Source: Aurantiochytrium sp. KH105
Lineage: Eukaryota > Sar > Bigyra > Thraustochytrida > Thraustochytriidae
NCBI GenBank assembly: GCA_003116975.1
Contig: BGKB01000052.1
Location: 361,041 to 425,040 of the forward strand
DNA: 64,000 bases
Reading direction: 5' to 3'
Shown here: in pieces, positions 1 through 64,000 of the stretch
How the letters are laid out: each line of letters starts with the position of its first letter
How positions within the stretch are numbered: position 1 is the first letter of the stretch
Program-made: the position numbers and the translations under genes
Notes under the pieces: model-generated
What the model saw: only the letters and a program-made list of their open reading frames with translations
Databases searched by the model: none
Told to the model about the DNA's origin: nothing

Positions 1-3000
1 ATGCAGCCTGCGGAAGACGAGGTTGCCTGTCACGTTGACCTTGTACGGGGTAGCTCCATGGTTGTACAACTCTCTGCTCTGGCTCTAAGTTGGGATAATG
101 GTATGGTTGCACACCGGCTAGTGGACTATTTACCCGAGCAAGCTCACAGGGCCGAAGATGGGACAATTGCAATTTCCGCCGAAGAAAAGACAGGATTCGG
201 CGACACTGAGAATAAAGTCCAATCCAGCGAGCAAGAACTCGAAGCGGACGACTTCCATCTCCGCGTCGTGACGCCTCGAGCTCTCATCATCCTGCGCGTT
301 CCCCATGAAGAGTCTCCAGGACCACATGCATCTGGTTCCCGGCGTTGGCTCTCCGAGGCCATGGTCCTGGACATGATGGACGTAAGCGTGCAAACCGGTG
401 CTGCCGCGCGTCTGGAACTGCAGTCTGCGCCCTCTCTGCTCGAAGATGGGGCCGGCGGTGACGCGGGGGGCGAAGCGTTTTTCGAACAGGTCGATGCTCT
501 TCGAAGCATTGGGTGGAGTCTCGTGTTTGACTTTTCGCGCGTGCGAGCTGTCGTGGAGCGTGCTTCGCCCCAGGTTCTATCGTCCGAGCTTGCTCCAGGG
601 GAGGCAGCTCGTTTTCTCGGCAATGGTGACATGAGTGGGACCAACGATGATGACGAAACCGCCTGGGCCCTCGTCGTAGACGGCTCGCGAGAGGGCGTTC
701 GGACGCCGCGTTTGACCATGAGTGTTCGACGTGCCTTTTCAAGCGCCTTGCAAGCCGAAGAAGCCGCATCGGGGGCCTTGCGACTCGCCCGCAAGTCACG
801 ACGCGCCTTCAAGCGACGCGTCCACCAGCGGCGTGCCCCAGGTGAAGAAGGTGGTGCTGCCGTGGATCCTGCTGGAGACCACGGTTTGGACAAGGACCAG
901 GAACCACCCTTGTACGAGGTCATGGAAGCGGTGTCCACTCACGGATTCTGCACGGCGGATACAGCAGTGCGTCTCGTCTGTCCCGATGCGCTTATGTCGA
1001 TCGACAAGGTGCAATACCACAGTTTGAACAATGTGCTACAGCTTGTGCTGGGTAGTGTGCCTTCATTCACACGAGCTGTTGCTGAAGATGATGCCGGTAG
1101 GGCCAGTGCACGTCTCGAGAAAAATGATGGGGAAAACCCAGATCATGAGCGCAAAGATAATGTGCCCTCCCCCCGTGTGCCTGAAGTGGTGGCAGCGTGT
1201 GAAGAAAAGTCGAGCGCACCTGTGCAAGACTTTTGGAATCCAAGTCCCAGCGGCTGTACTGGAGACGCGTTTGATCCGAATCTGGGGTCTGCTTGGAGCC
1301 TGGATGATGATACCGAAGCGCTCCGTCGTGCCGAAGAGTGCGGAGTGGTGCTCGGGTCATCTTCGAGCACATTTTTCCAGCTCTGCAGTCGCGGGGGCAA
1401 GGTCGCCTTGGTAGGTAGTAAGCATGCAGACTTTGAGCTCGAGTACTCTGGACTCGAGCTTACCATGGTGGACTCCAAAACAATGGCGGAAGCTCAAGAC
1501 GTGACGCTGCTCGAATCAGGAGAACCAATTGGATATGGCGAGGAAGCGCTGCGGCCTATTTTACATAGCACCAAGTGGGGCCGGAGCGCGTCGTCGTCCC
1601 CGCTGTTGCAAGTGTACATGGACGCTTCCTCTACCCAAAACAAAGAAAAGGAAAGCAACGGCGTCTTGCACGTTTGTGTGGACGGCCTTACGCTGCAGGT
1701 CTTACCTCAATCTACGTGGCTTCGCAAACTTGCGGACTTTTTGACGAGCGCTCCACCTTCCAACGCTGTAGGAGCGGCTCATGTCGTTGGTGAAAAATCG
1801 GCAGCATGGGACGGCGGCTGCAGCGGCGATGGGAGCGCGCCCGTCGTCACATATACGGAGGTTACGGTGGAATTTTTTGATGCTGTTCTCGAGTACCACA
1901 GCGGAGAACGGCCGCAAAACATGGCAATTGCAGGACTTGGCATGGTGCGCATGTCGTCCAACGTCGCCTCGCCGAGCGTGCAGGACCAACTCTATCACCT
2001 GACTGCGCGTGATCTGGCGCTGTACATTTCCAACGAGGCCCCTGCGGAAGACCCGAATCAGTTTGCGTGCGGGGCAGATGCGACGAGCCCATTTTCCTCG
2101 ATTGAGGACTTTGTGGCCTCGATGCTTTTCGCCAAAGTGGCTTCGCTCGATATGCTTGAGCTCTTCATCCGAAATCGCTCTTCGGGCGGCACGACGCATG
2201 CGACACGTGAACAACGCCCTACCTCTGCGGACCGCGATGTCAACCCTGACATCGACTATGAGGTGTCGGTGCCCAATATGTCGCTGTATAGCTGCACAGA
2301 TTCGTTTTGTACGTTAGAGGCTCTCGTGCATGATTTTGCCGTGGAGCTCAGTGGACGGTGCGGTGACGATCCAATGGATGACGAAGACGCTGTACCTCCG
2401 GGTGCAAGGGTACAAAAGGGTCTTGCAGGCGACAATGCAATTCTATTTGAGACAGGAGAGAGACCAAGAGTGGCACGCGCAGAAGATGGCATCTCGGCCG
2501 CGCCGGCACCATCAGCAGCGCTGAAAAAATCAAGCGAGGACGTGACGAAACCTTCGTCTGCGGGTACGTCCACATCAAGTGCGCATAGCCGTGCCCCTGC
2601 CCCAGCGATGAGCATGCGCGATGACGAGCGTTCTGCATCGGAGTTACGGAACTCATACTTGACGGATGGCGTTCCAGATGACCAGTTATCGGGGCCTCAG
2701 CTGCGCAGCAGACATGCGGATGGCCAGGATCCGGATCCTGACGCGATTTTCGTGGACGGTTTCTATGCCGTTGAGCAGGTGAATGTGATTTCGGCTGCAT
2801 CGGCCGCCGCCAAGGAAGCCGCGAGCAAAAAAGAAGAGGAAGAAGCCGTCGGAGGTAGTCAGACGCGAGGTGACGGCGCTTTGGGGCATCAGGAAGCTGC
2901 AGGAACGTGGTTTCATGTGGATGATGACGAGGAAGATGGTTTCACTGAAGCTACAGTCAGGGAAGGAAACAAGGGCTCGCTGACAGCGATGGGCGCCGAG

Positions 3001-5244
3001 TTGCTGATGTGGGGCGACCCGAACTCTGACAACCTCGAGGAGATGGAACTCGATGAGTGGCCTTCGGGTCCCATGGGCGAGAAAACACGCGCGCAGTCAT
3101 TCGAGGAAGAGGAAGCGGAAGAGCGTCTCGCAGAAGCACAAGTTGCAGAGGATACGAAGCGCGCGGTACGGGAACAAGAGGAGGCCATTGCGGACTATGC
3201 GAGTTTGTACAAGCGTGAGTTTCCCGACCAGGTCATTCATGCAAACAGCGATGCTGCAGTTCTCGAGACCAAGTCGGTGCGACAGCGTAGAGGAGCGAAT
3301 GATTCAGCCGAAAGTGATGTATCGCAAAATGGATGGTACGAGGACACTGGGTTCGATATGTATCCGCACTATATGGGTGTTCAATTTGAAGCCGGGCCGG
3401 GGTCTCACGTCCCAACTGCGGAGGCGCTCGCGGCGCGCATGGAAGGTCGTGCGAGTTTGCGTTCGCGCGTGGCTCGATGCACGTCACGCGTTGTTGTCCG
3501 CGACATGTCTGTTCGCTGGTGCTTGTTTGGCGGTTGTGACTGGAACTCGACGGCAAGCACCGTGGCCGCTTCGCGTCTGGCACGTTCACGCCAGGCGCGT
3601 CGAAGGGCCGCGGTTCACCCAGGTCAAGCCGATATGAGTGTTCATGCGCATGGCAAATTTGGCGCAAGCAGTCGTGACGCAAGCGAAGGGGCGCCAACAG
3701 GCGAGAACTGCTCGGCTGAGGAGGAAGAGCAGCAGCAGCAGCAGCAGCAGCAGCCAAAAGGAGCAATGCCAACGAGCTGGCGTCGTGAGCGACATCGGCT
3801 TGCAGGGCGGCAGAACGATCGCAAGCTGGAAGTTGTTTTATCTCACGTGACAGCGCTGCTGACCGCGTACGACGCACAGGCCGTTGCGGGCCCTTGCATT
3901 GCACAAAGCGTGGCCATTGCCGTTCGCGACTTTAGCATTATTGATTTGCTTTCGACTTCGGACATTCACACAATGGTCGGAGAGTGGATTTCGGATGCGC
4001 AGCACCCGCGCATTTCGGGATCTTCGATGCTTCGCGTGGCGCTCGACCACGTGGAGGGGGGTTCGCGCGACGCTCTCTGTGTCCGCGCAAGTATTCTACC
4101 TGTCAAGGCGAACCTGGACCAAGACTCGTTGGAGTTTCTTTTGGCCTACCTCGGCATGCGGGTAGGTGCGGATGATGCAGCCTTTTCGCAGCCTCGGCGA
4201 GATGGCGTTGACCGCAGCGGGAACGAAGTCGATGCAGACGAGGATGCTTCATCCAGCTCAAGCGCTTACTCCGAGGCTGGCCTGGATGAAGGTTTGATGC
4301 GGGGTCTGGACGGCGACTCGACGTCGTCAGAAGGCTGTCTGACCGGAGAGGATGCCGACATTGTGCTGGTGGAGAACACGGACTGGTTTATTGAAAGCGC
4401 AGACGTGCGTGCATTCAAAGTGAAGCTGGACTATCGGCCGAAGCGCTTCAATATGCAGGGACTAATGTCTGGCGATCGCTTGGCGCTCGTGAATCTTTTC
4501 GCTTACGAGGGGCTACAGGTGTCCTTGCGGCGCGTGGAGCTGGAGTCGATTCGCGGTGGATGGCGTGAATTGTGGGAATACGTACAAGCGTCATGGTCGC
4601 GAGATGCGCAGCGGCAGCGACACCGATGTTTGGCAGGAGTCTCGTTTCCTCCCATCAATAAGGTGGCGACCTTGGGCTCAGGGTTGACGAACCTTGTGCT
4701 GATGCCCTTGGAGCAGTACCAAAGGGACGGTCGTGTGGTGCATGGGTTGCGACGCGGCACTGCTTCGTTTGTGCGTACGGTGGCCATCGAAGCGCTCGGG
4801 ACATTTTCGATCGCGGCGCAGACGGCGCAGATGCTTTTGGAGCATGCGCGAGATGTTCTCTCGCCTCTGCCTCCGGGGGCCGAATTTGGTGGACGAGGCT
4901 TGGTCGCGCGCACTGGGGCAGAGCGCGAGGGTGGAGATGCGAGTGCAAGTGCAGTACCGCCTCTGAATATGAAGGAGGGCCTGGAGCGTGGTGCAGACAG
5001 CTTTACGCGTGAGGTCAAGCGGGCTGCATTTGTCCTTGTTGCGCTTCCTTACGACGAGCTCCAGCGCACGGGGCCGACAGCGGCTGTAAAGTCGGTTCTT
5101 CGGGGTGTCCCAATCGCTGTGATTCGGCCTTTGATTGGGGCCACTCAGGCCATGTCTAGCACATTAATGGGGATTCGCAATTCCGTGGATCCAGACGCAC
5201 GTGCGGAGGAGGCGCAAAAGTACAAGTCGCATGCGAAGGGTTGA
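1..5244 (+). CDS. ATG2: Autophagy-related protein 2 (ATG2)-like, C-terminal part; 5' end probably outside the window
   Basis: ATG2 is a rod-shaped lipid-transfer protein that moves phospholipid from the ER to the growing autophagosome. The frame is open from base 1 to a TGA at 5242-5244 (1,747 codons). Base 1 happens to be ATG, but no Chorein_N-type start is visible, so the N-terminus probably lies upstream. Family hallmarks are in the C-terminal half. About residues 1161-1183 carry VVRDMSVRWCLFGGCDW, like the conserved ATG2 segment with a W-x-L-(Y/F)-G-G-x-D-W core. About 1472-1520 carry KLDYRPKRFNMQGL and then the LVNLFAYEGLQVSLRRVEL segment. Residues from about 1560 carry FPPINKVATLGSGLTNLVLMP and a small-residue-rich tail (GTASFVRTVAIEALG), matching the ATG2 C-terminal region. 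The middle is acidic and low-complexity, with a Glu/Gln run near 1240-1252. No intron was needed. A VPS13-family relative is the main alternative. Confidence 0.85.
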   Translation: MQPAEDEVACHVDLVRGSSMVVQLSALALSWDNGMVAHRLVDYLPEQAHRAEDGTIAISAEEKTGFGDTENKVQSSEQELEADDFHLRVVTPRALIILRVPHEESPGPHASGSRRWLSEAMVLDMMDVSVQTGAAARLELQSAPSLLEDGAGGDAGGEAFFEQVDALRSIGWSLVFDFSRVRAVVERASPQVLSSELAPGEAARFLGNGDMSGTNDDDETAWALVVDGSREGVRTPRLTMSVRRAFSSALQAEEAASGALRLARKSRRAFKRRVHQRRAPGEEGGAAVDPAGDHGLDKDQEPPLYEVMEAVSTHGFCTADTAVRLVCPDALMSIDKVQYHSLNNVLQLVLGSVPSFTRAVAEDDAGRASARLEKNDGENPDHERKDNVPSPRVPEVVAACEEKSSAPVQDFWNPSPSGCTGDAFDPNLGSAWSLDDDTEALRRAEECGVVLGSSSSTFFQLCSRGGKVALVGSKHADFELEYSGLELTMVDSKTMAEAQDVTLLESGEPIGYGEEALRPILHSTKWGRSASSSPLLQVYMDASSTQNKEKESNGVLHVCVDGLTLQVLPQSTWLRKLADFLTSAPPSNAVGAAHVVGEKSAAWDGGCSGDGSAPVVTYTEVTVEFFDAVLEYHSGERPQNMAIAGLGMVRMSSNVASPSVQDQLYHLTARDLALYISNEAPAEDPNQFACGADATSPFSSIEDFVASMLFAKVASLDMLELFIRNRSSGGTTHATREQRPTSADRDVNPDIDYEVSVPNMSLYSCTDSFCTLEALVHDFAVELSGRCGDDPMDDEDAVPPGARVQKGLAGDNAILFETGERPRVARAEDGISAAPAPSAALKKSSEDVTKPSSAGTSTSSAHSRAPAPAMSMRDDERSASELRNSYLTDGVPDDQLSGPQLRSRHADGQDPDPDAIFVDGFYAVEQVNVISAASAAAKEAASKKEEEEAVGGSQTRGDGALGHQEAAGTWFHVDDDEEDGFTEATVREGNKGSLTAMGAELLMWGDPNSDNLEEMELDEWPSGPMGEKTRAQSFEEEEAEERLAEAQVAEDTKRAVREQEEAIADYASLYKREFPDQVIHANSDAAVLETKSVRQRRGANDSAESDVSQNGWYEDTGFDMYPHYMGVQFEAGPGSHVPTAEALAARMEGRASLRSRVARCTSRVVVRDMSVRWCLFGGCDWNSTASTVAASRLARSRQARRRAAVHPGQADMSVHAHGKFGASSRDASEGAPTGENCSAEEEEQQQQQQQQPKGAMPTSWRRERHRLAGRQNDRKLEVVLSHVTALLTAYDAQAVAGPCIAQSVAIAVRDFSIIDLLSTSDIHTMVGEWISDAQHPRISGSSMLRVALDHVEGGSRDALCVRASILPVKANLDQDSLEFLLAYLGMRVGADDAAFSQPRRDGVDRSGNEVDADEDASSSSSAYSEAGLDEGLMRGLDGDSTSSEGCLTGEDADIVLVENTDWFIESADVRAFKVKLDYRPKRFNMQGLMSGDRLALVNLFAYEGLQVSLRRVELESIRGGWRELWEYVQASWSRDAQRQRHRCLAGVSFPPINKVATLGSGLTNLVLMPLEQYQRDGRVVHGLRRGTASFVRTVAIEALGTFSIAAQTAQMLLEHARDVLSPLPPGAEFGGRGLVARTGAEREGGDASASAVPPLNMKEGLERGADSFTREVKRAAFVLVALPYDELQRTGPTAAVKSVLRGVPIAVIRPLIGATQAMSSTLMGIRNSVDPDARAEEAQKYKSHAKG

Positions 5245-5579
5245 ATTTATATTTTCCAAAAAGATGCGCGAAAGTATTTTTCGATTCTGTGTTTCGTTTC
5301 CGTTTTGCATTTGGGAACGTGTGACAATGGAGCTAGGCTGAGTGGTTGCGAGGGGGGGAGACAAATGCTAAAGCGTTTACATATTGAATGAACTTTTTTT
5401 TGAAAACTTGCAGCGTAACGAGGTCAGTCAGACACTCGATCAATCAATCAATCAATCAATCAATGTTCAGATTCGTCTTTATATGCTTTAGAGGTGTATG
5501 TGTAATGTATGTATGTATGTATGTGCATGTGGCCGACGCGCGTCCGAGGTGAGAAATTTCTAGCGACTACGTTGTGTGT
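5245..5579. other. Convergent intergenic spacer
   Basis: This spacer lies between the stop codons of the ATG2-like gene and the Q/N-rich gene on the other strand, so it must hold both 3' UTRs. It contains an (ATCA)n run at about 5439-5464 and a (GTAT)n run at about 5507-5524. No ORF or RNA gene was seen. Confidence 0.7.
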
Positions 5580-7940
5580 TTAGTTGTTGTATGGCTGTTG
5601 CTGCTGTTGCATATTTGGCCACTGCGAAAGGAGGGCGGCCATTGCGTTTGCATTGAATGCTGGCGCGTTGGACCCGGTCGGGTTGCCAGAGAAATTTCCC
5701 TGAAGGCCAGCGAAGGAGGGGCTGTTGTTGCTGTTGTTATTGTTTTGTTGCTGCTGAGCAAAAATTGCCTGCAGTTGCGTGAGAATTCCGTAGTTCGCCG
5801 CATTACCTGGTTGAGACGAGGACTGCGCCCAGGGAAAGGAGGCGTTGTTGCTGTTGTTACTGTTGTTGTTGGACGCTTCGGTGCCGTTTGAGGGCTGAGA
5901 CATGTTTTGAGCGCCAATTGACGCGAGAGCGGCTGCGCCTTGCTGCAGACCCGGGGTGATGTTTCCGAAAGCAACAGCTTGTTGTTCATTGGTCGTTTTG
6001 CTGGATTCTCCACGGGCCTTGGCAGCGTCCGCGGTCAAATCACCGGAGGTCTTGCGCGGCGGCGATCCCGAGGCAGACTTTGCATCGTTCGGGTTTCTCT
6101 GCACTTGCATCTGCTGGAGAGATGCGAGGACTGGCGCTGGAATGGTACGCTCGTTCTTGATGGCGTTGGAGTTATTGTTGGCGCTGTTGTTGGAGTTACT
6201 TGTTTCTTCGACCGTTGTCTGCATCGCACCACCGGGGCGTTGCGAGGCAGGGAGCGAAGTGGAGGCAAAGTTGTTGGCCTTGTCGCTGTTGGAGAGGGAA
6301 ACAAGAAAATCGCTGAGCATGGGGTTGGCCTGGAAGGAAGGAGGTGTCTGGCCCTGCTGCTGGTGCGAGGATGCCGCTGCTGCCGCTGCGGCGACGGCCG
6401 CTGCTGCGGCCTGAGGGCCCGCCGCCAGCGAGTTAAAGTAGCCCCCGATGGGCTGCGCGGAGAAGTTGCTCTGGAAAGATGAAGGGAAAAAGGGCTGCGA
6501 GACATTGTGCTGTGGGTTGGACTGCTGCTGCTGCTGCTGCTGGCCGGAAGAAGCCAAGAACTGCTGATAATTGGCCATTGCCGCTTGCGCGGCGTGCGCC
6601 TGCTGCTGCTGTTGATGCATGTGCGAGTTGAACTGCGACATCATAGCCATGGCCGAGTGTTCCGCGGATGATCCGACAAAGGAGGACCTTCGCTGGTTGG
6701 GGAAGTTCTGCGCGGCGGCGAAGTGCTGCTGGGCAGAAGTGGACTCTGCGGGAGCGGACGATGTGGATGCGCGGCGATGGAGCATGGGATGCAAGGGACG
6801 CGAGACGGTGTTGACGTCTTGGCGCCAGGCAGAGACGATGCGAAAGTGGGGCGAGTCCTTGATGTCAACGCAAATGTTGCGGTCATCGAATACATAGGCC
6901 GTGAAGGCGTGGAGCTCCGAAGTGGTGTACTTGTTTTGCTCGCAATGATACCTCCACTTGCGCGGGGGCATAAAGTCGAAGACGGCCATGCCTTCGGCCT
7001 CGTTGTACTCTTGAAAGGATGCAAAGACGACGCGGGAGACGTCGAAGGAGGCCGTGGAGGACTTTGAGCCCATCTCAACGAGAGGCTTTTCCCTGACTTT
7101 GCGGAAGCGGCCCATGAGGTGGAGCTTGCGTGCGGCCTGGGCGTTGGGGCAGCGCAAAAAGACGGTGATGGGGAGGCCGCAAAAGCTGCGTTCCTTGTGC
7201 TCGGGTGCGCAAAAGGGAAAGCAGCGCAGGTTCTTGTGGCGGGTGCGGACGTAGGACGGGTGCCAGTTGGTTTCGAGGGCGAAGCGCATTTGGCTGTGTC
7301 CCTGGGGTCCGTTGCCGTGGTCCATGACGCGGGGCATGGAGTTGAGGAAGCTCTTGCTGGACTTGCGTGGCCTCCGCACGGCGGCGTCCGAGGAGGACTC
7401 TGCGTCGTCGCTCTTCTCGTTTGCTTGCGTTTTCCCCCCTGGCGGGTCTGAGGAGGCGCGCTTGACGGCGCGGCGTTCGCCTTCCTCGTCGTCGTCCTCG
7501 TCCTCGTCTGCGCGTTCGTCGTCGTCCACCTCGGGCTTGCCGTCGCGCTTGCGGTGGGCGAGTTTGCGCTTGCGCGCATTAGGCTCTCCTGCCCCGCGCT
7601 GCTGCTGCTGCTGCCGCTGCCGCTGCAGCTCCTCCTCCTCCTCCTCCGAGCCCGAGCTGGACGCTGCCGACTCGTCGTCGCTGCCGGCCTTCTTGCTGCG
7701 CGCCGCGGCCGCCGCCGCCGCCACCGCCGCCATCGTGTCCATGGGGCCGGGGCTGCTCTGCTCCTTGCTCTCCTCCTCCTCCTCCTCGGCCTCGCGCCAC
7801 TTCTCGGCGGCGCCTTTCAGGTTCTGCGGGATGTTGATGTTCTGTGGTCCTTGCCGGGACTGCTGCTGCTGCTGCTGCGTCTGCTGCCTTTGTTCCTGCT
7901 GCTGGCTGCGCTCGTTCTTGAGGCTCGATACCACCGCCAT
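5580..7940 (-). CDS. Q/N-rich protein with one unrecognised folded domain
   Basis: A 786-residue protein is predicted from the ATG at 7940-7938 to a TAA at 5582-5580. The open frame runs further upstream (to 8366), but that part is Lys runs and QAGRQTD repeats encoded by simple-sequence DNA and begins with GTG, so I place the start at MAVVSSLKNER. The N-terminal third is low-complexity (Gln, Ala, Asp/Glu, basic clusters resembling nuclear-localisation signals). A globular-looking block follows, about residues 190-400. It is rich in aromatics, Cys and His (RFALETNWHPSYVRTRH, FCGLPITVFLRCPN, VFDFMPPRKWRYHCEQ, SPHFRIVSAW) and its composition is unlike its flanks. The C-terminal half is Q/N/S/A-rich and prion-like, ending QQQQPYNN. 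I do not recognise the domain. A nuclear regulatory or RNA-associated protein is a guess from composition only. Confidence 0.75.
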   Translation of the reverse strand: MAVVSSLKNERSQQQEQRQQTQQQQQQSRQGPQNINIPQNLKGAAEKWREAEEEEEESKEQSSPGPMDTMAAVAAAAAAARSKKAGSDDESAASSSGSEEEEEELQRQRQQQQQRGAGEPNARKRKLAHRKRDGKPEVDDDERADEDEDDDEEGERRAVKRASSDPPGGKTQANEKSDDAESSSDAAVRRPRKSSKSFLNSMPRVMDHGNGPQGHSQMRFALETNWHPSYVRTRHKNLRCFPFCAPEHKERSFCGLPITVFLRCPNAQAARKLHLMGRFRKVREKPLVEMGSKSSTASFDVSRVVFASFQEYNEAEGMAVFDFMPPRKWRYHCEQNKYTTSELHAFTAYVFDDRNICVDIKDSPHFRIVSAWRQDVNTVSRPLHPMLHRRASTSSAPAESTSAQQHFAAAQNFPNQRRSSFVGSSAEHSAMAMMSQFNSHMHQQQQQAHAAQAAMANYQQFLASSGQQQQQQQSNPQHNVSQPFFPSSFQSNFSAQPIGGYFNSLAAGPQAAAAAVAAAAAAASSHQQQGQTPPSFQANPMLSDFLVSLSNSDKANNFASTSLPASQRPGGAMQTTVEETSNSNNSANNNSNAIKNERTIPAPVLASLQQMQVQRNPNDAKSASGSPPRKTSGDLTADAAKARGESSKTTNEQQAVAFGNITPGLQQGAAALASIGAQNMSQPSNGTEASNNNSNNSNNASFPWAQSSSQPGNAANYGILTQLQAIFAQQQQNNNNSNNSPSFAGLQGNFSGNPTGSNAPAFNANAMAALLSQWPNMQQQQQPYNN

Positions 7941-8028
7941 TCTGCGGCAAACGCTGCCTGCGCTGGTCCCTCGCGCTGCTTGCGCTGCCTGCTTCCGTGC
8001 CTGGCTGCCTTCCTGCCGGCCTGTCTCC

Positions 8029-8099
8029 CTGTCTACCTGCCTGTCTGTCTGTCTGCCTGCCTGCCTGCCTGCCTGCTTGTCTGTTTGTCTGCCCGCCTG
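8029..8099. repeat. (CTGY)n microsatellite
   Basis: Tandem CTGC/CTGT tetranucleotides lie in the presumed 5' UTR or promoter of the Q/N-rich gene. Read antisense they give the QAGRQTD-type peptide that inflates the open frame upstream of the chosen start. Confidence 0.85.
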
Positions 8100-8151
8100 G
8101 GTAGGTGGTTGCAGGTTTGTTGTTTGGTTGTTTTGGTGTTTGCTTCTGCTT

Positions 8152-8243
8152 GGCTTTTTCTTTTTCTTTTTCTTTTTCTTTTTCTTTTTCCTTTTCTTCT
8201 TTTCTTTTTTTCTTTTTTCCTTTCTTCCTTTCTTCCTTTCTTT
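8152..8243. repeat. Polypyrimidine (T4-5 C)n tract
   Basis: About 90 bases of almost pure T/C lie in T-rich hexamer and pentamer steps. Antisense this is the Lys run upstream of the Q/N-rich protein. Such tracts can act as promoter elements; no direct evidence. Confidence 0.85.
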
Positions 8244-9299
8244 GGCCGCTGATGCGTCTGTCTGCTTTTGTTTTTTTCTTTTGTCCTTTAATCGCCCGCC
8301 CGCTTGCCTCGGCTCGGCTCGGCTCGACGCGGCGCGACTCGGCTCCGCTCCGCGACCCGGTTGCACGCTCTAGCGGCGCCCCGCCTCTTTCTCCTGCTTT
8401 CTGCTCCCTGGTCGCGCGCTGCCGCTCCTCCAAAGCGCAGCGAAGGCGGTTCGCCGCCCCTCACCGCGCCCTGCCGTCCCTCCTCTCCACCCCTCGGCAG
8501 AGAGGGAGGAGGAGGCGGCAGGAACAGGAAGCAAGCCGGGGGCCAGCGCGGAGAAGGCAGGAGAGGGGGGAGAGAGAGACGCCGGCTGCGGAGGCGGGGC
8601 AAAGAAATGGAAGCGCGCGCCGCGACGGCGGCGGATCGGCGAATCGAGTGAGGCAGGCAGAGACCGGGAGGGAGGGAGAGAGGGAGGGAGGAGGAGGAAG
8701 GGGGCGGTTGCGGCGAGTGCAGCGTGCAGCCCGTGCGGACGCGCGCGGGCGAGCCTGCGGCGAGGGCCGGGAGAGGAGGCAAAGGCGTGAGCGGGGGGAA
8801 CCGTCCGTCGTCGCCGAGGGGCTGCGAATCATCATTCTCTCTCTCGCAACAGCAAGCAAGTGCCACAGAAAAAAAGAAAAAAAGAAAAAAATAAAAGAAA
8901 GAAAGACGCGCGCGGAAAAAAAAAATGAAATTCAAAGTCTCAAAAAAAAAAGAACAGCCAGCCAGCCTGCCTGCCAGACACTCGGGGAGAAGAAGAAAAA
9001 GGTGAAAGAATGAAAGAAGTATCATAAGTTGGAAGCCCTAAGCTGCGGGAAGGTGGACGCCCGTCCCGGGAGGGCCGGAGAGAGCGTGAGCTGCAGGCCG
9101 TCTGTGGGAAGGGCGTGGTGAACCGGAGAAAGCGCGAGCTGTTGGCCGTCTGTGGGGACGAGAAGTCTGGCCTTTTCTTTCTTTTACTCTTGCCGGCGTT
9201 CTTTCCTTCATTCCTTCTTTTTTTCACTGGCGAGTCTTTCAGAGAAAGATGATTTTCGTTCGGCCGTCTCTCGCGCTTTCTCTTGCTCCTCTCCGGTCT

Positions 9300-46973: not shown

Positions 46974-48536
46974 ATGTTTGGCTTTCTCGCCAGGATCTTT
47001 GGGTTCTGCACGCCCGACGCTGCATCAGCAGCTCGCGAGGGCGCAGACCAAGAGGCCTTGGCCTGCGAGACATACACGGCACCTACTCCTCACGACGCTC
47101 GCAGAGAGCACACCACCTTTGTGCAGGAAGCTGTCGTGCAGCTCGATGCTGTAGACTTTAGCGTGCAGTCCCCAGTGCCTGAGTCCCAGACGAGTGCTCG
47201 TCACAATCCATCGCGCCGCGCAAGCTCTGCAGGAATCCTCGAGATCTTGAATGATTCCAATGGCTCGACGGAAAGCGTCGTGTCGCGCACTTTTGATGAC
47301 GCGGCAGCACAAGCCACGCCTTTTCACTCACAACCTTCGGACATGTCAGGGACTGTCGAAAACCAGACGTCTTCAAATTCTATTGGGAATGGGGATCTCG
47401 CGAAGCCAGCCACGGTGGATGCTAGCGGCGAAGACCTCCCAATGAAAAGCGACGCCAAACCTCTCGAGTCGGCATCATCAGAACTGCCGAAGACTGTCCA
47501 AAGTGAAGTCTTTTCACAGACCGTCGAATCTGGCCAAGACCTCGAGATGAAGAGCGACGCCAAATCTCTTGAGCCGGCACCGTCAGAACTGCCAAAGACT
47601 GTCTCAAGTGAAGCTTCCTCAGATTCCATTGAACCTGACGAAGACCTCGAAGTGAAGAGCGACGTCAAACCTCTTGACTTGGCATCGATAGAATTGCCAA
47701 AGACTGTCCAAAGTGAAGACTCCTCAAAGTCCATTGAATCTGAGGATCTCCCGAAGCCAGTCATGGCACATGCGAGCAAAGACCTCGAAACGAAGAGCGA
47801 AGTCAAGCCTCTCGACCCCAAACCTCCGGGAAAAACCGGGTCGCCTACAGAAATTCGAAAACCTCTGCAGCACGCTCTTGCAGATACTCCTGAACATTTC
47901 GAGACGACAAGCAACACCAAGTCTTCGATCGATACCCCAAGCCGCAGAGCAAAAGACGATGATATCATCGCGACGCCCTCTCGCACAGTAGAGCTTGAGA
48001 GTTCATCGTCGCTGCTTGATGAGTCACCGATGTCAGCGCGCGGAACTCCCCTGCGTCCAGGCTCTACTGATGTTTCCTTGGCGTCGACACCGTGGCGAGG
48101 CCAACAAACAAGCAGCGAGGGAACGTTGACACCAATGCGAAGCGAAGAGCAGTCAACTGGGCAAGACCAGCTGGAGACTCCAACACGAGACGACGACTGC
48201 TCCGCGAAGCAATCTGCGACGCCTCTTCGCGATGCCACAAACACACCGCTGCAAGTGAAAGCAACACCAAGTGCAAAGAAAACACCGAATGGCCCTGCTC
48301 TCGTTGCGCGCGGATTCGGAGTGACCCCACATGATCCGAGATACCGGAGACTGCATGATCCAGATGTCCCGATTGCAGTGCACGAGAAAAGCTTCTCCAA
48401 GCGCGTCGAAAGTGCGATGCGCAGAGACGCTGTGCGTCATAAGTTCCGAAAATCGCGCCAGCAGCAGCAGCCGCCGCCAGCCCCCGGACTTCAAATGCTC
48501 TCTTTTGATGAAAACGAGGACACGGGCTCCGCATGA
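46974..48536 (+). CDS. Repeat protein with TPxR motifs, function unknown
   Basis: This 520-residue protein runs from ATG 46974 to TGA at 48534-48536. It starts with a short hydrophobic MFGFLARIFGFCTP, which could be a membrane anchor or amphipathic helix. Residues about 148-280 hold three tandem 35-residue repeats (105 bp each) of the form SDAKPLE..ELPKTVQSE, plus a diverged fourth. Residues about 320-440 carry many short Thr-Pro motifs (TPSR, TPLR, TPWR, TPMR, TPTR, TPLR), potential proline-directed kinase sites. A conserved-looking C-terminal block (RGFGVTPHDPRYRRLHDP, VHEKSFSKRVESAMRRDAVR) precedes a QQQQPPP run. Most of the protein looks disordered. I do not recognise a family. Its stop codon is 13 bp from that of the opposing MYND-FKBP gene. 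Confidence 0.8.
   Translation: MFGFLARIFGFCTPDAASAAREGADQEALACETYTAPTPHDARREHTTFVQEAVVQLDAVDFSVQSPVPESQTSARHNPSRRASSAGILEILNDSNGSTESVVSRTFDDAAAQATPFHSQPSDMSGTVENQTSSNSIGNGDLAKPATVDASGEDLPMKSDAKPLESASSELPKTVQSEVFSQTVESGQDLEMKSDAKSLEPAPSELPKTVSSEASSDSIEPDEDLEVKSDVKPLDLASIELPKTVQSEDSSKSIESEDLPKPVMAHASKDLETKSEVKPLDPKPPGKTGSPTEIRKPLQHALADTPEHFETTSNTKSSIDTPSRRAKDDDIIATPSRTVELESSSSLLDESPMSARGTPLRPGSTDVSLASTPWRGQQTSSEGTLTPMRSEEQSTGQDQLETPTRDDDCSAKQSATPLRDATNTPLQVKATPSAKKTPNGPALVARGFGVTPHDPRYRRLHDPDVPIAVHEKSFSKRVESAMRRDAVRHKFRKSRQQQQPPPAPGLQMLSFDENEDTGSA
47448..47762 (+). repeat. 105-bp in-frame tandem repeat, three copies
   Basis: Copies start at 47448, 47553 and 47658 with exact 105-bp spacing; a fourth, diverged copy starts near 47796 after a longer step. 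Because the period is a multiple of 3, copy number can change without a frameshift. Confidence 0.85.
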
Positions 48537-56750: not shown

Positions 56751-58540
56751 GTGGCAAGAGAAGACAAACTCTTGTCTTCTTGTGGGAAAAGAGCTTCCGT
56801 TCCCTTGAGTGACTCTACGAGCTGAGGCGATGATAAGTCTTAAGAGACCGGTGGATCGAGCGTAAAACATGTTCAAACAATCATTTTTGGAAATTGGGCT
56901 GGCAAATGACAGCCAGAGGTTGTCGGGAATGGAAATGACGTGTTCAGACCTTGGCGCCAGAAGAGCGAGAAGGTCAACTTCGTATTCATTTGAATCAACA
57001 CTTTCTTGACCGCGTACTTTCCAACCCAACATTTAGGGAAGTCTAATCCTGCAGGTGGCGTGGGCAAAGTAATTGGCGACCATGTCTTCACGACGAGGCA
57101 AACTAAGGCGGAATTCGAAATTCACGCTCAAGACAAAAAAGCAAGTTGCATTCGGGCAGACCCGAATTTACTGTGCCGATCCTTGCAAGTAATCCATTTG
57201 ATTCTAATTTTTCAATATGAGAAGAGAGAGATATGACAGTTCTAGGGCTTAGGGCCTACTAGGGCTCAGGCCTGAATTCGCGACAAACGATTTCATGCTT
57301 GTGTCGCTCAATCCTGATCCGAGATGAGGCTAAGAAGTGTGGATGCTGTTTTCGGGCTGTTTGCACTTGGCTCAACGAGAAATGTCAAATGTCGAAAGCA
57401 ATTGAAAAAGCTAGATTCGTATACTCGCAACTGCCAACAGCGAGTGACTTTGCACGCGTTCAGAAGTGTGGAGTGGTTCGTCTTGACGCTATGACACGAC
57501 GAAGCTCTTCAAGAGGAGAAGGTAAATTTTCATTTCTTCTGCATTGTCGGTTCACTTGGCGTTTGCCTTGAATTCCAAAGGGTTGATTGGGATCACTACG
57601 CTTTTAAAAATGAAGGAGGATTGAAAACCAATGTGACAAGGAGAAGGAAGGGAGGGAAGAAACCACAGACAGCCACTTTCCACCGTCATATATTTATGCT
57701 ACTTGCCGAATCTGCTGGTTCTCGAAATCTGTAAAAGCAATGAAAGGACGTTTTACCGTACCGTACCGCAAAACTTCTTGCCGCCATTTCATTCACAACA
57801 ACTTAAAAAAAAAAAAAGTTCTCTGACTCCACGCTGCTCGCTGATTCGACATGTTTCATATTCATACTAAGCACAACGGTATAAGTCGCGCACGTCGACA
57901 GACATTGATGGATGAATAAGCTCCGTTGACCGCTCGCAAATGATTTACGCGCATCTTATCATGCAGGAAAGACTGAATTCGAAGCGCAATGCCTTCTTCT
58001 TTCTATCCTGTAGTTCGTTGGTCGAATCTGAAAAGCTGGCGGGCGAAGCATCTCAAAGAATTCGTTCCGAGGCTGCTCTGATTGACAGTGAGACCAGAAA
58101 TGCAAATAGCACGATCTCGGCAGCCTTACTTGTTCAACATCCTCCTTAAAAAAAGTGGAAAGGTGAGAGCAGACAAGAAGCAGGAAAAGTTGCCGACTGA
58201 TTCTATCAGTCTGACAATCTGAAGATTCTTCTAGCTCGTCCTGCCACTCATTGCTATAAGTGGTCTTCACCGCGCTGAGCGCCTATCCAAGCGACAACAA
58301 GCGCGCGTAGCCGCGAGAGCGCCCCCGCGCTCGCACGCGCACGCACAGCTTGCTGGCTGTCGCTGCCAAGCCTTCAACTCGACGTACAGGGAAGAAAGAC
58401 CGCCTTATCGGGCGACATACATCTGAGATGAAAGGTCTTCAAGAGACTTAAAAACAGAGAAACAGGTTTCGATTACTCTTTTTTTTTTCAAGTACCAAGA
58501 AAGCTAAGTGGGTTTTGATCTCAGATCTAGCTTCCTGAAA

Positions 58541-59042: not shown

Positions 59043-59254
59043 AGTACATACATAGCTAGGCGACCGTTTATATTGGGAAACATGAACCCATCTTGGTTTT
59101 CTTGCCAAAGCACCAAGTTTGAGCACATGACATGCAAGACACAAGCTCGTCGTCGCAACATGAAAGAAAGCCTCCCATCCCCTTTTCCCCTTTCTCCCCC
59201 CCCCAAAAGACCACCACCAGAAAAGGAAGAAAAAGAAAGGAAATCAAACGCGCG

Positions 59255-61052
59255 CTAAGGCATGTGCTGAACAAGGATGGCGAGAATGCCCCATGAGGCG
59301 TCGATGAGCTCGAGGTCCGCCACATTTCAAAGCTCTGGCGGTACGTAATGTAGTCGGTATCAACAATCTCTGAGGCCACGGGGAGATTGATGGCAATTGG
59401 CCCAAAGAGAGGCGTTTAAGTGTCCTGACGGATGCGCTTCTCGTATTGAACCTTGGATGGCTCCTGCACCAGGAGACCGCGTAGGGCGGACTCGCCCATG
59501 ATGCGGTTTGATGCCACGAACAATGTTTGTGGAACGCATGACAAAGAGCAAGTCGCGAGGCAAGCTCTCTAGGAACTTACTAATGTCACCGGCGTTGACG
59601 ATTTTGTACTTGTCCTTGACTTTAGCGCCCTCCTCCTTGGAGCTGCGGGCCTCTTTTGGTCATCGAGTCTACGGGCCGATATGTGAAGATGAGCGAGAGA
59701 ACGTCATAGGTGTCTTTGGACACGCCGAGGTTCATGGCTGCAGTGCGGCCAAGGTTTGCGTCGCGGAGTAGAAGCGCTTTCCAGAGCATGCAGTAGTTCT
59801 TGCGGAAGAAAGGATTTAATCTTCTGTACATGCCATGGTCCAATACAACAACCTGACACGGGACGCCCTGTTTGCCCCCAAAAGTCTTGACGCGCTGAGC
59901 TTTGTATGCGGCTACCAGAGACGAAAGTCCCCCAGCAGACATGAGGGCTAGAGCAGCAAGAGGCGCCGCGGGACCGATCAGCGGCGCCGCATACATCGTC
60001 GATGCGCCAGCAACGAGCAAAGAGACCGTCGAGACGAAACCAAAGTTGGACCACACGGAGCGCTCGGGTGCCTTGCGCACGAAAAGATTGCCTAGATGCG
60101 GGTCGTAGTGCACAAAGCCGAGAGCGTGAATCATGTCATCAAAGAGCAACGAGACCGTGGTGGCAACCTCGAGAGGGTGGATTCCTTGCGCAGCAAATTC
60201 GTCCACCTTGCTGATTTTGACGCCCTCAACGTATTCCATGATGAGCATGCGTCGCGAAGAGTGCTTCCAAATGATTTTTGGCACGTATACGTCGGCACGG
60301 TTCGCGAACATTTGGCCCAAACGTTCGCTGTTGCGCCCTTCTTGGATGAAATCGAGCTCGAGGGTCATGTTATCAGCAAACGCGGGGGTGAGCCACGAAT
60401 AGGAAAAGTCAGGAAACCAGTACCCGACGAAATCGGTGAGCATGCGCAAGGTTGCAAGGTCGCCGCGTGTCTGCTCTCTGAGATATGGGTATTGAACCTT
60501 GACGGCAACAGTTTCGCCCGTCTCTCTGAGCACGGCACGATGGACCTGGGCGAGAGAAGCAGATGCGATGGGCTCGGGGTCAAAGCTGGCAAAGACATCT
60601 TCCAGGGCGAGGGGACCGAGCTCAGCAGCTACGGTCTCGCGAGCCATCTCGCTGCTCATCGACTTTGCACGATCTTGGAGAGGTGCAAGAGTATCGGTAA
60701 TTTCTTGAGGAAGGACGTGGTTCATGCTGGCCACACCCTGCCCGTACTTCGTGTACAGACCTCCGTTTCGGTTGCACACTTTGTAGAGGCGTGCGGCAGC
60801 GCGAAGGCTAAAGGCATGAAGGGCCTCCTTGTAGGCGTCCTTGTCGATATCCTTGTCCTTGCCGTACATGGTCACTTTCCAGTCGACGGCGGTGACAAAG
60901 GCATTGAAGCACGTGCGCCCAAACCGCACGAGGCCGTCGCTCCCCTGCGAGGCCACGCGCACGGCCTCGCGCGCGTCTGCGTCCGTGGCACCCACGTAGG
61001 CCACGCCCAGGCCGCTGACGCCCACGGCGGTTGACGTGAGAGCGCGCAGCAT
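59255..61052 (-). CDS. ADCK1-type ABC1/UbiB atypical kinase; frame broken near the 3' end
   Basis: ABC1/UbiB proteins are atypical kinases/ATPases, mostly of mitochondria and plastids; the ADCK1/MCP2 branch acts in mitochondrial lipid homeostasis. ATG 61052 opens 476 codons to a TAA at 59624-59622. Visible motifs: KYGQ (102-105, the family's KxGQ), Ala-rich loop ASASLAQVH (163-171), the ATP lysine in VAVKVQY (185), ELDFIQEGRNSERL (232-245), catalytic loop HYDPHLGN (315-322) and metal motif DHG (405-407), as in ADCK1. The N-terminus has a weakly hydrophobic, Ala/Val-rich stretch that may target mitochondria. Residues about 331-383 are a hydrophobic insert absent from usual family members. After MTK (466) the frame is lost, but family-like sequence continues in other frames to a TAG at 59257-59255: KFLESLPRDLLFVMRSTNIV, then GPIAINLPVASEIVD, then LELIDASWGILAILVQHMP. 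The breaks sit beside A or G runs. Either a pseudogenised 3' end or base-call errors. Confidence 0.88.
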
Positions 61053-62178
61053 CTTCGCCGCTTCTCCTCTCCCTCGCGCGCCAGGCCTCTGCGAGCTCGG
61101 CTCCGGCGCTCGCGCTCGCCCGCTCGCTCGCTCGCCCGCGCTGCGCCTGGCGCGGTCTCGGGTCTGCTGCGTCCAGAGTCGCCCGCAAGGCAGAGAGAGG
61201 CGCAGACACAGGAGACGGACGCGCGAAGGGAGGGAACAAGGGAAGCTGGGCCGACTCGGAGCAGCAGGTGAACGAGAACGTTCTGCCAGAAGTCTTGCAG
61301 TGCTTTGCATGCATGACGTGAGGACCGGCAAGAATGCGAAGCTCGCTTGGTCTTGGCGCGATTTGGGGGAAGACGTCGGTGGCGAGAAGATGAACGAGGA
61401 GGGTGTTGAAGCTGGACGGCCTAGGATAGCTAGGCCTACTGCGAGCTGCCCAGTCTGCGTGCTTGCGAAGGACCTTTTGGCAAGACAGGGGTATGTGTAC
61501 CAGCTGGCTGCCACTGGTGAATAGTAAAGAGCTTGCACGCTCTTGAGCAAGTCATCGTTTGTGTTCGACTTGGTTGGTTGGCTGCTCAAGTTGCCCATCG
61601 ATCTCGTCATCGACATGTTGCCTGTGACAGTGACTGCCACTGCCAAGGCGATGTGTCACGATTTTCGCAGAACTACTGCACCTTGGTAGGAGGGCCTATA
61701 CGCTGTTTATCGATGCACACGGCGGGTGTGTGCAAACACGTGCAAACATTCTCTATGCCCCCCCCCCCCCCCCTTTCCCCTTTATAGTCAAGCAAGTTTC
61801 TGCGCGTGTGACGGGTTAGAATAGGACTCAGCGAGAGAGCGAGCACGCGAGCAATCGATCGATCGATCAACAAACCTCGAATTAAGCGACAGTCCGCTCG
61901 TGGTGACGTCGAGTCGAGGTAGCCCCGTCTGCCTGTCTGCCTCCTGCCGTGTCTACTGTACTACCGTACGAAGGGCCTTGTTTGGTGCAACGTACACCTT
62001 GCGCACGGAGGACTTGCGAAAAAAGCAGGGCAAGGTCCGTCCCGGCGCGTGCTCTTCGCCAAACGCCTGCCAACAAGCCTTTGGTGTCCTTTGCACAGAT
62101 ACTGGCCACCTCAACTCTCTTGCCCGCCCGCTCTGCCGCCATCGAAGAAGACAAGTCTGAAGAGAAACTTTCAGGGCG
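61053..62178. promoter_or_regulatory. Divergent promoter region, ADCK1-like kinase / LRR gene
   Basis: This 1.1-kb stretch lies between two divergent starts. The left part is GC-rich; the right part has a C16 run at 61758-61773 and a (GATC)n run near 61855-61868. No convincing gene on either strand. Confidence 0.5.
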
Positions 62179-64000
62179 ATGTCCACCTTGGAACAAGAAG
62201 ATGATCCAGTCGCAAACGCAGTCAAGGCGATATCCGAGGGCGAAACTACGCTTCGGTAGGTCCACGAATACTCACGCGCAAGACAATGAGAGAGACTGAT
62301 TGACACTGACGACTGCACACAATGTATACCAACGAAACGCGACTTTAACGTTGTTGCGGAACTTGCCGATCAACTGCATTCTCCGTGCTACACAAGCGCA
62401 GACTTTCTTCCAACGAGATTGGCCCAGATGGCGCCAAGGCGCTGGCTGGCGCGCTCAAGGAGAACTCGTCGCTGCGGTACTTTGAGTAAGTGATGGTAAG
62501 AAAAGAAGAGATGCGCGCAAGGAACAAGAAGAACTGATCAAATCGCAATGAACTTATTCTACCAAACCAATGCACGGCGCCGCAACGGTCTCGTCTTTTG
62601 TCTCTTTCATGTATCGTTGCTGCGCACGTTTGTTGTTCACTGCATTCTCCGTGCTGCACAAGCGCAGTCTTTCGTATAACAAGATCGGCCCAGATGGCGC
62701 CAAGTCGCTGGCTGGCGCGCTCAAGGAGAACTCGTCGCTGCAGAGCTTGATGTAAGTGATGGTGAGAAAAGAAGAGATGCGCGCAAGGAACAAGAAGAAC
62801 TGATCAAATCGCAATGAACTTATTCTACCAAACCAATGCACGGCGCCGCAACGGTTTCGTCTTCTGTCTCTTTCATGTATCGTTGCTGCGCACGTTTGTT
62901 GTTCACTGCATTCTCCGTGCTGCACAAGCGCAGTCTTAAGTCGAACGAAATCGGCCCAGATGGCGCCAAGGCGCTGGCTGGCGCGCTCAAGGAGAACTCG
63001 TCGCTGCAGATTTTGATGTAAGTCATGGTGAGAAAAGAAGAGATGCGCGCAAGGAACAAGAAGAACTGATCAAATCACAATGAACTTATTCTACCAAACC
63101 AATGCACGGCGCCGCAACGGTTTCGTCTTTTGTCTCTTTCATGTATCGTTGCTGCGCACGTTTGTTGTTCACTGCATTCTCCGTGCTGCACAAGCGCAGT
63201 CTCAGGGATAACAAGATCGGCCCAGATGGCGCCAAGTCGCTGGCTGGCGCGCTCAAGGAGAACTCGTCGCTGCAGGACTTAGAGTAAGTTATGGTGAGAA
63301 AAGAAGAGATACGCTCAACAAACAAGAAATACTGATCAAATCGCAATGGACTTATTCTACCAAACCAATGCACGGCGCCGCAACGGTCTCGTCTTTTGTC
63401 TCTTTCATGTATCGTTGCTGCGCACGTTTGTTGTTCACTGCATTCTCCGTGCTACACAAGCGCAGACTTTCTTCCAACGAGATTGGCCCAGATGGCGCCA
63501 AGGCGCTGGCTGGCGCGCTCAAGGAGAACTCGTCGCTGCGGTACTTTGAGTAAGTGATGGTGAGAAAAGAAGAGATGCGCGCAAGGAACAAGAAGAACTG
63601 ATCAAATCGCAATGAATTTATTCTACCAAACCAATGCACGGCGCCGCAACGGTTTCGTCTTTTGCCTCTTTCATGTATCGTTGCTGCGCACGTTTGTTGT
63701 TCGCTGCATTCTCCGTGCTGCACAAGCGCAGACTTGATATCAACAAGATCGGCCCAGATGGCGCCAAGGCGCTGGCTGGCGCGCTCAAGGAGAACTCGTC
63801 GCTGCAGAGCTTGAGGTAAGTCATGGTGAGAAAAGAAGAGATGCGCGCAAGGAACAAGAAGAACTGATTAAATCGCAATGAACTTATTCTACCAAACCAA
63901 TGCACGGCGCCGCAACGGTTTCGTCTTTTGTCTCTTTCATGTATCGTTGCTGCGCACGTTTGTTGTTCACTGCATTCTCCGTGCTGCACAAGCGCAGTCT
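62179..64000 (+). CDS. Leucine-rich-repeat protein encoded by one-repeat-per-exon modules; partial at right edge
   Basis: Exon 1 (62179-62255) starts MSTLEQEDDPVANAVKAISE and ends in phase 2 before GTAGGT. LRR exons follow at 62402-62485, 62668-62751, 62934-63017, 63200-63283, 63466-63549 and 63732-63815; a seventh begins at 63998. Each is exactly 84 bp, starts after GCGCAG, ends before GTAAGT and is phase 2 at both ends. Splicing exon 1 to the first LRR exon gives TTLRLSSNEIGPDG, a perfect repeat entry, which supports the model. Each exon encodes one 28-residue ribonuclease-inhibitor/NLRC3-type LRR, LxxNxIGPDGAKxLAGALKE followed by NSSLxxLx. Such proteins form horseshoe binding surfaces; ligand and partner are unknown. 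Variation is confined to the two residues after the first Leu, E/K after Asn, A/S in the helix, and the last four positions. The 3' end is outside the window. Confidence 0.85.
62402..64000 (+). repeat. 266-bp tandem exon-intron array, six full units plus a seventh
   Basis: Acceptor-to-exon boundaries lie at 62402, 62668, 62934, 63200, 63466, 63732 and 63998: a constant 266-bp step with no indel. Each unit is an 84-bp exon plus a 182-bp intron. Introns differ from one another by only a few substitutions (the fourth has the most), all with GTAAGT donors, an ACTGAT branch-like motif and a CACAAGCGCAG acceptor. Exons 1 and 5 of the array encode identical repeats and share the acceptor variant CTACACAAGCGCAG, which suggests block duplication or gene conversion. 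The first intron (62256-62401, 146 bp) is related only in its last 30 or so bases. Confidence 0.95.

Follow-up and report, generated by a model that had tools for sequence, protein, structure and literature searches.

An earlier study of brown-algal LRR-ROC-COR (ROCO) genes was reportedly made by Zambounis in 2012. In brown algae, according to the available portion of Teng 2024 (PMC11378527), ROCO genes carry one LRR per 72-bp phase-2 exon, undergo exon shuffling, and give rise to alternative transcripts; positive selection acts at four concave-face sites, and the proteins are proposed to be immune receptors. The Aurantiochytrium sp. KH105 locus described here resembles them in having one LRR per exon, in phase 2, with ROC-COR behind the array in its intact relatives, and, probably, in exon shuffling and a possible immune role. 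However, the brown-algal exon encodes a 23-residue LRR, whereas here 84-bp exons encode a ribonuclease inhibitor (RI)-type 28-residue repeat, and LRR-ROC-COR is the only architecture reported in that portion of the article, whereas relatives of our locus have a C-terminal TIR domain. Nor does the contrast measured here between alike introns and hypervariable exon ends appear in that portion. Because of the 84-bp exons and the C-terminal TIR of the relatives, we regard the locus as a variant of the brown-algal LRR-ROCO type, as described there, and not as a member of it.

The second close precedent is Tetrahymena, whose 90-bp LRR exons number in the tens of thousands and are separated by introns of characteristic length (PMC6564038, in part). 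Points of likeness are tandem LRR exons of equal length, more than 96% of them between phase 2 introns, intron lengths specific to the array, units recognizable at the nucleotide level, and recent independent expansions in a protist. Exons in Tetrahymena are 90 bp compared to 84 bp here, most genes there are reported to be under purifying selection, and the excerpted text of PMC6564038 contains no ROC-COR-TIR back end. Given these two precedents, as far as the portions available describe them, the exon-per-LRR layout itself is already known. The first-pass annotation of this locus had drawn its parallel with vertebrate NLR proteins only; brown algae and Tetrahymena are closer.

TIR-bearing ROCO proteins have also been described, as TPR-ROCO-TIR in Chondrus (PMC11378527), and ROC-COR occurs in TLR-like and MyD88-like proteins of Aplysia (PMC9334734). 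These combine ROC-COR with TIR as here, but an exon-per-LRR array is not mentioned for them in the sections of the two articles available. In three-finger toxin genes of snakes, exon segments outpace introns, a process termed accelerated segment switch in exons, or ASSET (PMC2474615, in part). There, as here, the rapid change is confined to brief stretches of exon and remodels a binding surface while the fold is kept; ASSET as described in that part concerns paralogous toxin genes without LRRs, whereas here the units of one array are compared. No title among the literature matches listed named LRR-ROC-COR-TIR exon arrays, and in PMC7159879 the term ROC-COR is confined to the references. New here are the 84-bp RI-type exons, the TIR back end, the large family within one genome, and the clean split between variable islands and alike introns.

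The window, a stretch of 64,000 nucleotides, ends at the end of contig C52 (425,040 bases). A single tandem array extends from position 62373 to 64000 (TRF; period 266, 6.1 copies, 92% matches, 0% indels) and contains six 84-bp LRR exons with a spacing of exactly 266 bp (Table 1). Each is preceded by CAG and followed by GTAAGT, and each is read as 1 base, 27 codons, and 2 bases, in phase 2 at both ends (6/6). All six introns are 182 bp long and differ pairwise at 2 to 13 of 182 positions, and an in-frame TAA is met immediately, by eye, on reading through into an array intron. TRF and exon reading thus confirmed the spacing, phase, and donors given in the first-pass annotation, and its near-identical introns were likewise borne out. 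The uniformity it attributed to the units holds for spacing, phase, and donor across the six; it does not extend to the exon-end columns, which are variable, or to exon 1, which begins with ATG and ends in phase 2 but has a GTAGGT donor, unlike those of the array, and a first intron of 146 bp and different sequence. Exon 1 of the C149 relative has the same ATG, 77-bp length, and GTAGGT donor. Since the window ends with its contig, the gene is cut after six units, and since units in the three closest arrays range from 253 to 266 bp, the indel-free spacing is a local feature.

Table 1. Coordinates of the window gene, its upstream stretch, and two further arrays (window positions unless a locus is named)
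Feature	Position	Strand	Remarks
Upstream stretch	59075..62178	+	common with C72 (94%), C149 (93%); with C156 in two pieces (88%, 74%)
Exon 1, 77 bp	62179..62255	+	ATG, MSTLEQEDDPVANAVKAISEGETTL + 2 bases; hydrophobic leader absent by eye
Intron 1, 146 bp, GTAGGT...CAG	62256..62401	+	only the 3' end resembles array introns; TRF array starts at 62373
LRR exon 1 of array, LSSNEIGPDGAKALAGALKENSSLRYF	62402..62485	+	
LRR exon 2, LSYNKIGPDGAKSLAGALKENSSLQSL	62668..62751	+	
LRR exon 3, LKSNEIGPDGAKALAGALKENSSLQIL	62934..63017	+	
LRR exon 4, LRDNKIGPDGAKSLAGALKENSSLQDL	63200..63283	+	
LRR exon 5	63466..63549	+	all 84 bases identical to LRR exon 1
LRR exon 6, LDINKIGPDGAKALAGALKENSSLQSL	63732..63815	+	
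Six array introns, 182 bp each	62486-62667, 62752-62933, 63018-63199, 63284-63465, 63550-63731, 63816-63997	+	
Seventh LRR exon, first 3 bases	63998..64000	+	interrupted by the contig end
84-bp LRR exon arrays whose introns belong to a different family, before ankyrin-like frames	L021 (C316) 3764-8803; L017 (C172) 1488-5330		

The six spliced repeats of the window itself matched Pfam LRR_6 (2.1e-41) and, in the PDB, ribonuclease inhibitor and NLRP chains, with DRC5 as the best match. Just after GTAAGT, intron position +7 (62492, 62758, 63024, 63290, 63556, and 63822) has a diversity of 0.40 to 0.45 among near-constant neighbors. No unusual RNA fold was found in the single array intron folded (z = 0.47), and on that one intron a conserved RNA structure is unsupported. 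Elsewhere in the window, a 105-bp tandem repeat (47427-47742; 3 copies, 80% matches) has a length that is a multiple of three and is possibly a 35-residue coding repeat. Telomere repeats (six motifs, at least 3 copies) were absent from four contig-end pieces, all from ends other than that of C52.

The assembly comprises 76 Mb in 367 contigs, and many loci are present twice, apparently as both haplotypes. A genome search for other arrays, as the first-pass annotation had proposed, recovered arrays similar to that of the window on C149, C72, and C156 (85 to 94% along all or most of the query). C149 and C72 are collinear in two stretches that extend into the array, one of 6.6 kb (93.7%) and one of 9.3 kb (94.9%), and are probably alleles; across these 16 kb, which cover the coding exon and some of the array, the presumed alleles differ by 5 to 6%. 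C62 resembles C52 up to approximately window position 58,030, a short way before C62 ends, and C156 starts at the equivalent of approximately 58,785; the second allele of the window locus may therefore be C156, although it does not overlap C62. As the upstream stretch is common to C72, C149, and partly C156, the gene was apparently duplicated along with it.

Two relatives, and only these, were spliced through end to end. C149 yields 1337 aa without a stop from a 77-bp exon, twelve 84-bp exons, LRR exons of 87 bp and 84 bp, and a 2758-bp exon; C156 yields an open frame of 1160 aa with six array exons and two further LRR exons like those of C149. LRR exons before the ROC-COR-TIR exon number 14 in C149 and 8 in C156. 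The 12 and 6 array units of these loci contain no N and have flanking sequence on both sides, so that array length does differ between gap-free loci. Between alleles, for which the first-pass annotation proposed variable length, it may differ too, although the C72 array holds a 1352-N gap and C52 is truncated.

The last exon of C149 contains ROC (7.1e-18), COR-A (1.6e-9), and TIR_2 (1.2e-15) domains (Pfam). ROC followed by COR, which defines a ROCO protein, was found in the relatives C149, C201, and C54 (the last with ROC, COR-A, and TIR_2), while the corresponding part of the window copy lies beyond the contig end. The anatomy supports the modular receptor of the first-pass annotation, sharpened by this exon of the intact relatives. 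The GTP-binding P-loop motif, GxxxxGKS/T, is seen by eye in the relatives as GNAAAGKT (C149) and GKAAAGKT (C72 and C156). Against the PDB, the long exon of C149 matched LRRK2 as well as several chains labeled 'Rab family protein' (we take these to be bacterial Roco proteins), and its TIR part matched bacterial TIR chains (top E value, 0.00013). WLDES of C149 aligned with WYDEF of 7uxr and 7uwg, and the best match, 3h16, has WYDDF at this position; the WxDE position is presumably that of the TIR NADase catalytic glutamate (AbTIR and SARM1). The ROC-COR-TIR exon is constrained, with dN of 0.034 and dS of 0.124 between C149 and C72 and dN of 0.010 and dS of 0.041 between C13 and C197.

Across the genome, at least 24 ROC-COR-TIR stretches were recovered with a protein query (alignments beginning no later than residue 185 and extending at least to residue 687 of the 689-residue query, with each haplotype counted separately), a lower bound as 65 of 244 candidates were scored, along with many weaker ROCO matches. 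All 11 stretches examined among these 24 had 84-bp LRR exons nearby. A pattern search (AG, 84 bases, GT, LRR-like residues) over 16 stretches found at least 156 such exons, 133 of them with a GTAAGT donor; the pattern recovers 6 of the 7 known C72 units and misses divergent exons, making these counts lower bounds. Introns fall into groups by locus (C52/C72/C149/C156, C54/C117, C172/C316, C20/C265, and C41), with older, scattered arrays such as C13/C197. The C316 array is followed, in separate frames, by ankyrin repeats (5.2e-7) and by a protein kinase (7e-29); downstream of the C172 array is a weak ankyrin match (0.0011, below the cut-off). By their position, the ankyrin and kinase frames may form one gene with the C316 array, and the exon array may accordingly be a reusable recognition module. 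PfaA-like synthase pieces lie at C72:311448-314912, C155:172083-175544, C61:32-2791, and C290:39390-42377, all below the family cut-off. A PfaA-like match of 930 bits versus the cut-off of 1010 hints weakly at a labyrinthulomycete, in a family that also matches below the cut-off in 11 of 14 control genomes; two 18S patterns gave no hit. The matches on C72 and C61 end near contig ends, perhaps on account of repeated ACP domains.

The main point, absent from the first-pass annotation, is the presence of hypervariable codons beside the splice junctions in contrast to alike introns. Among the six window units, variable columns make up 17 of 28 at the exon ends, 2 of 56 in the core, and 17 of 182 in the introns (ends versus the remaining 19/238, P = 2.9e-10; Fisher's test, with the border of the ends set after the data were seen). 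In 31 units from four loci, mean nucleotide diversity is 0.65 over codons 2, 3, and 26 together with the two leading bases of the codon that the intron splits. The introns of these units have a value of 0.077 and the silent sites of the core one of 0.07; when C156 is left out, the values are 0.625 for islands, 0.044 for introns, and 0.069 for the silent core. The unit comparisons exclude position 4505 of C156, a frame-shifted false exon. The set treated as hypervariable differs by comparison: codons 2, 3, 5, 25, and 26 and the split codon in the 31-unit tabulation, codons 2, 3, 5, and 26 and the split bases in the other arrays, and codons 2, 3, and 26 and the split bases for the figure of 0.65. 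All nine other arrays, which include haplotype pairs and are thus not nine independent cases, were more diverse at the island positions than in scaffold and intron, with a range from 0.36 versus 0.05 and 0.14 (C54) to 0.62 versus 0.26 and 0.34 (C197). These within-array means omit C201, which has too few introns, and the stretches of C54, C117, and C265 mix blocks, those of C117 and C265 across N gaps.

The strand motif of LRRs is LxxLxLxxN. Codons 2, 3, and 26 and the split codon presumably correspond, within this motif, to the exposed beta-strand residues of the ribonuclease inhibitor structure, and since the intron cuts within the motif, one strand is coded by two exons. The asparagine codon within the island is AAC in 29 of 31 units, and no variation occurs among the 31 at codons 21, 23, and 24. 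A classical dN/dS above 1 is not evident at island codons 2, 3, and 26 across the 31 units (pN of 0.68 versus pS of 0.60), and when codon 5 was included, pS was the higher (0.68 versus a pN of 0.60). With pS close to pN, the islands look old or exchanged, not freshly mutated. Regional hypermutation is unsupported because kept codons sit within the islands, and adenine-directed variation, the hallmark of diversity-generating retroelements, was rejected as the island codons vary in all bases (by eye).

Intron differences amount to 3.8% within the C52 array, 2.5% within C72, 5.5% within C149, and 12.6% within C156; a comparison of C149 with C72 gives 4.0%. Set against the 5 to 6% of the collinear C149/C72 stretches and a dS of 0.124 in their coding exon, these low values indicate that most units are young or are being homogenized, those of C156 less so, and the values for C52 and C72 agree with the recent expansion or exchange suggested in the first-pass annotation. 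Left and right islands occur in 29 combinations in 31 units, drawn from 21 left and 18 right types. The two showed no correlation (Mantel r = 0.002, P = 0.42, n = 21), a result that at this n does not prove decoupling, and a right island correlated weakly with the next left island (r = 0.135, P = 0.03). At codon 26, same-residue pairs used the same codon in 46 of 55 cases compared to an expected 0.48 (0/500 simulations), and between arrays in 32 of 41 (1/500). Codon sharing above what usage predicts makes the codon-26 words look inherited and shuffled. Between arrays, no excess over codon usage was found at codon 2 (7/45 shared; 481/500 simulations as high) or codon 5 (64/123; 351/500), and codon 3 gave 11/31 (50/500). 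For seven C72 units, the nearest C149 unit still differs at 2 to 3 of 4 island codons, whereas the C13/C197 haplotypes keep 31 of 36. This turnover versus stability points to the young arrays as the active ones, although C13/C197 are approximately three times less diverged (dS of 0.041 versus 0.124), making their stability a confounded control.

How such arrays arise can be explained in several ways. The array might be an assembly artefact in which one unit was multiplied where the contig ends, as the first-pass annotation had itself named for its refutation. The window does end with its contig, and the C72 array is gapped, but the N-free units of C149 and C156, flanked on both sides and reading openly into ROC-COR-TIR, argue against it, as do the differences among units in their islands, and we consider an artefact exceedingly improbable. 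Under neutral tandem expansion, unequal crossing-over would multiply units and the variable codons would be unconstrained surface, with no selection for diversity. Plain unequal exchange predicts repeated units, as in the identical LRR exons 1 and 5 of the window and in C54 and C316. However, island diversity exceeds that of the introns of the same units approximately 8-fold (four loci) to 14-fold (three loci), and the excess is also present within single arrays. Because unconstrained sites should match introns but here exceed them, neutral expansion is disfavored, and we hold it to be quite unlikely.

Diversity could instead be generated by a dedicated mutator or by cassette copying that rewrites island codons in the germ line or soma. 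Diversity-generating retroelements and lamprey VLR assembly are precedents. In favor of such targeting, replacement affects entire codons, diversity at the silent sites of codons 1, 4, 6, and 24 is threefold that of the silent core (0.21 versus 0.07), and pS is close to pN in the islands. But the mid-island asparagine codon and the invariant codons are kept, the codon lists show by eye no adenine-only pattern, the codon-26 words look inherited, and C13/C197 are stable between haplotypes (with the confounding noted above). Targeted diversification is, in our judgment, very unlikely; rewriting of the islands by a dedicated process is the less likely account of them. On the simplest account, the islands would be old variants that selection keeps distinct, and exchange would homogenize the sequence between them. 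Transcripts might also pick a subset of the symmetric exons, as in the brown-algal ROCO genes, where Ectocarpus transcripts with different LRR exons are reported (PMC11378527, in part). Array exons are all phase 2-2, which would permit the exon skipping proposed in the first-pass annotation, and a stop arises in only 4 of 1950 ordered pairs of the 156 pattern-found exons (16 stretches, joined within a stretch). However, symmetric phase is expected from duplication anyway, the absence of stops follows largely from exons that start with T (106/156), the one intron tested has no special fold, and 133 of 156 donors are GTAAGT, a donor that favors constitutive use. Splicing-based diversification is unlikely as the explanation by itself but is compatible with unequal exchange and selection, and the two could act together.

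We consider it likely, with some reservation, that the window contains the 5' part of a receptor-like ROCO gene with an RI-type LRR array in which unequal exchange homogenizes the units and selection diversifies the contact residues; the intron difference of 12.6% within C156 counts against this. From the sequence and the known strand motif, the intron cuts each LRR in its beta-strand motif, such that half of the strand residues are encoded at the 3' end of an exon and half at the 5' end of the following one. Two short codon islands are hypervariable, in contrast to the near-identical 182-bp introns and the approximately 50 near-identical bases that separate the islands. The alike introns and cores would then be the sites at which unequal crossing-over and gene conversion add, delete, and homogenize units and shuffle the left and right islands, and selection for new binding surfaces would keep the islands different. 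By analogy, a ligand on the concave LRR face could switch the ROC-COR GTPase and release TIR signaling, for which the C-terminal TIR domain is a plausible read-out, and the receptor, which is probably cytosolic, might be an innate, probably antimicrobial, sensor.

These arrays may represent a third lineage of one-LRR-per-exon arrays beside those of brown algae and Tetrahymena. A far-reaching and highly improbable reading is that the arrays form a combinatorial receptor system, in principle a counterpart to lamprey VLRs. If this is true, half-strand islands would be exchanged by a dedicated process acting in the germ line, in somatic cells, or at splicing, and each cell or lineage would present different LRR binding faces while the ROC-COR-TIR chassis stays fixed. 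The locus offers a measurable case, in which introns and scaffolds are alike and the bases of contact residues differ in about two thirds of comparisons. With presumed haplotypes and both young and older arrays in one assembly, unequal exchange with selection versus a directed process becomes testable.
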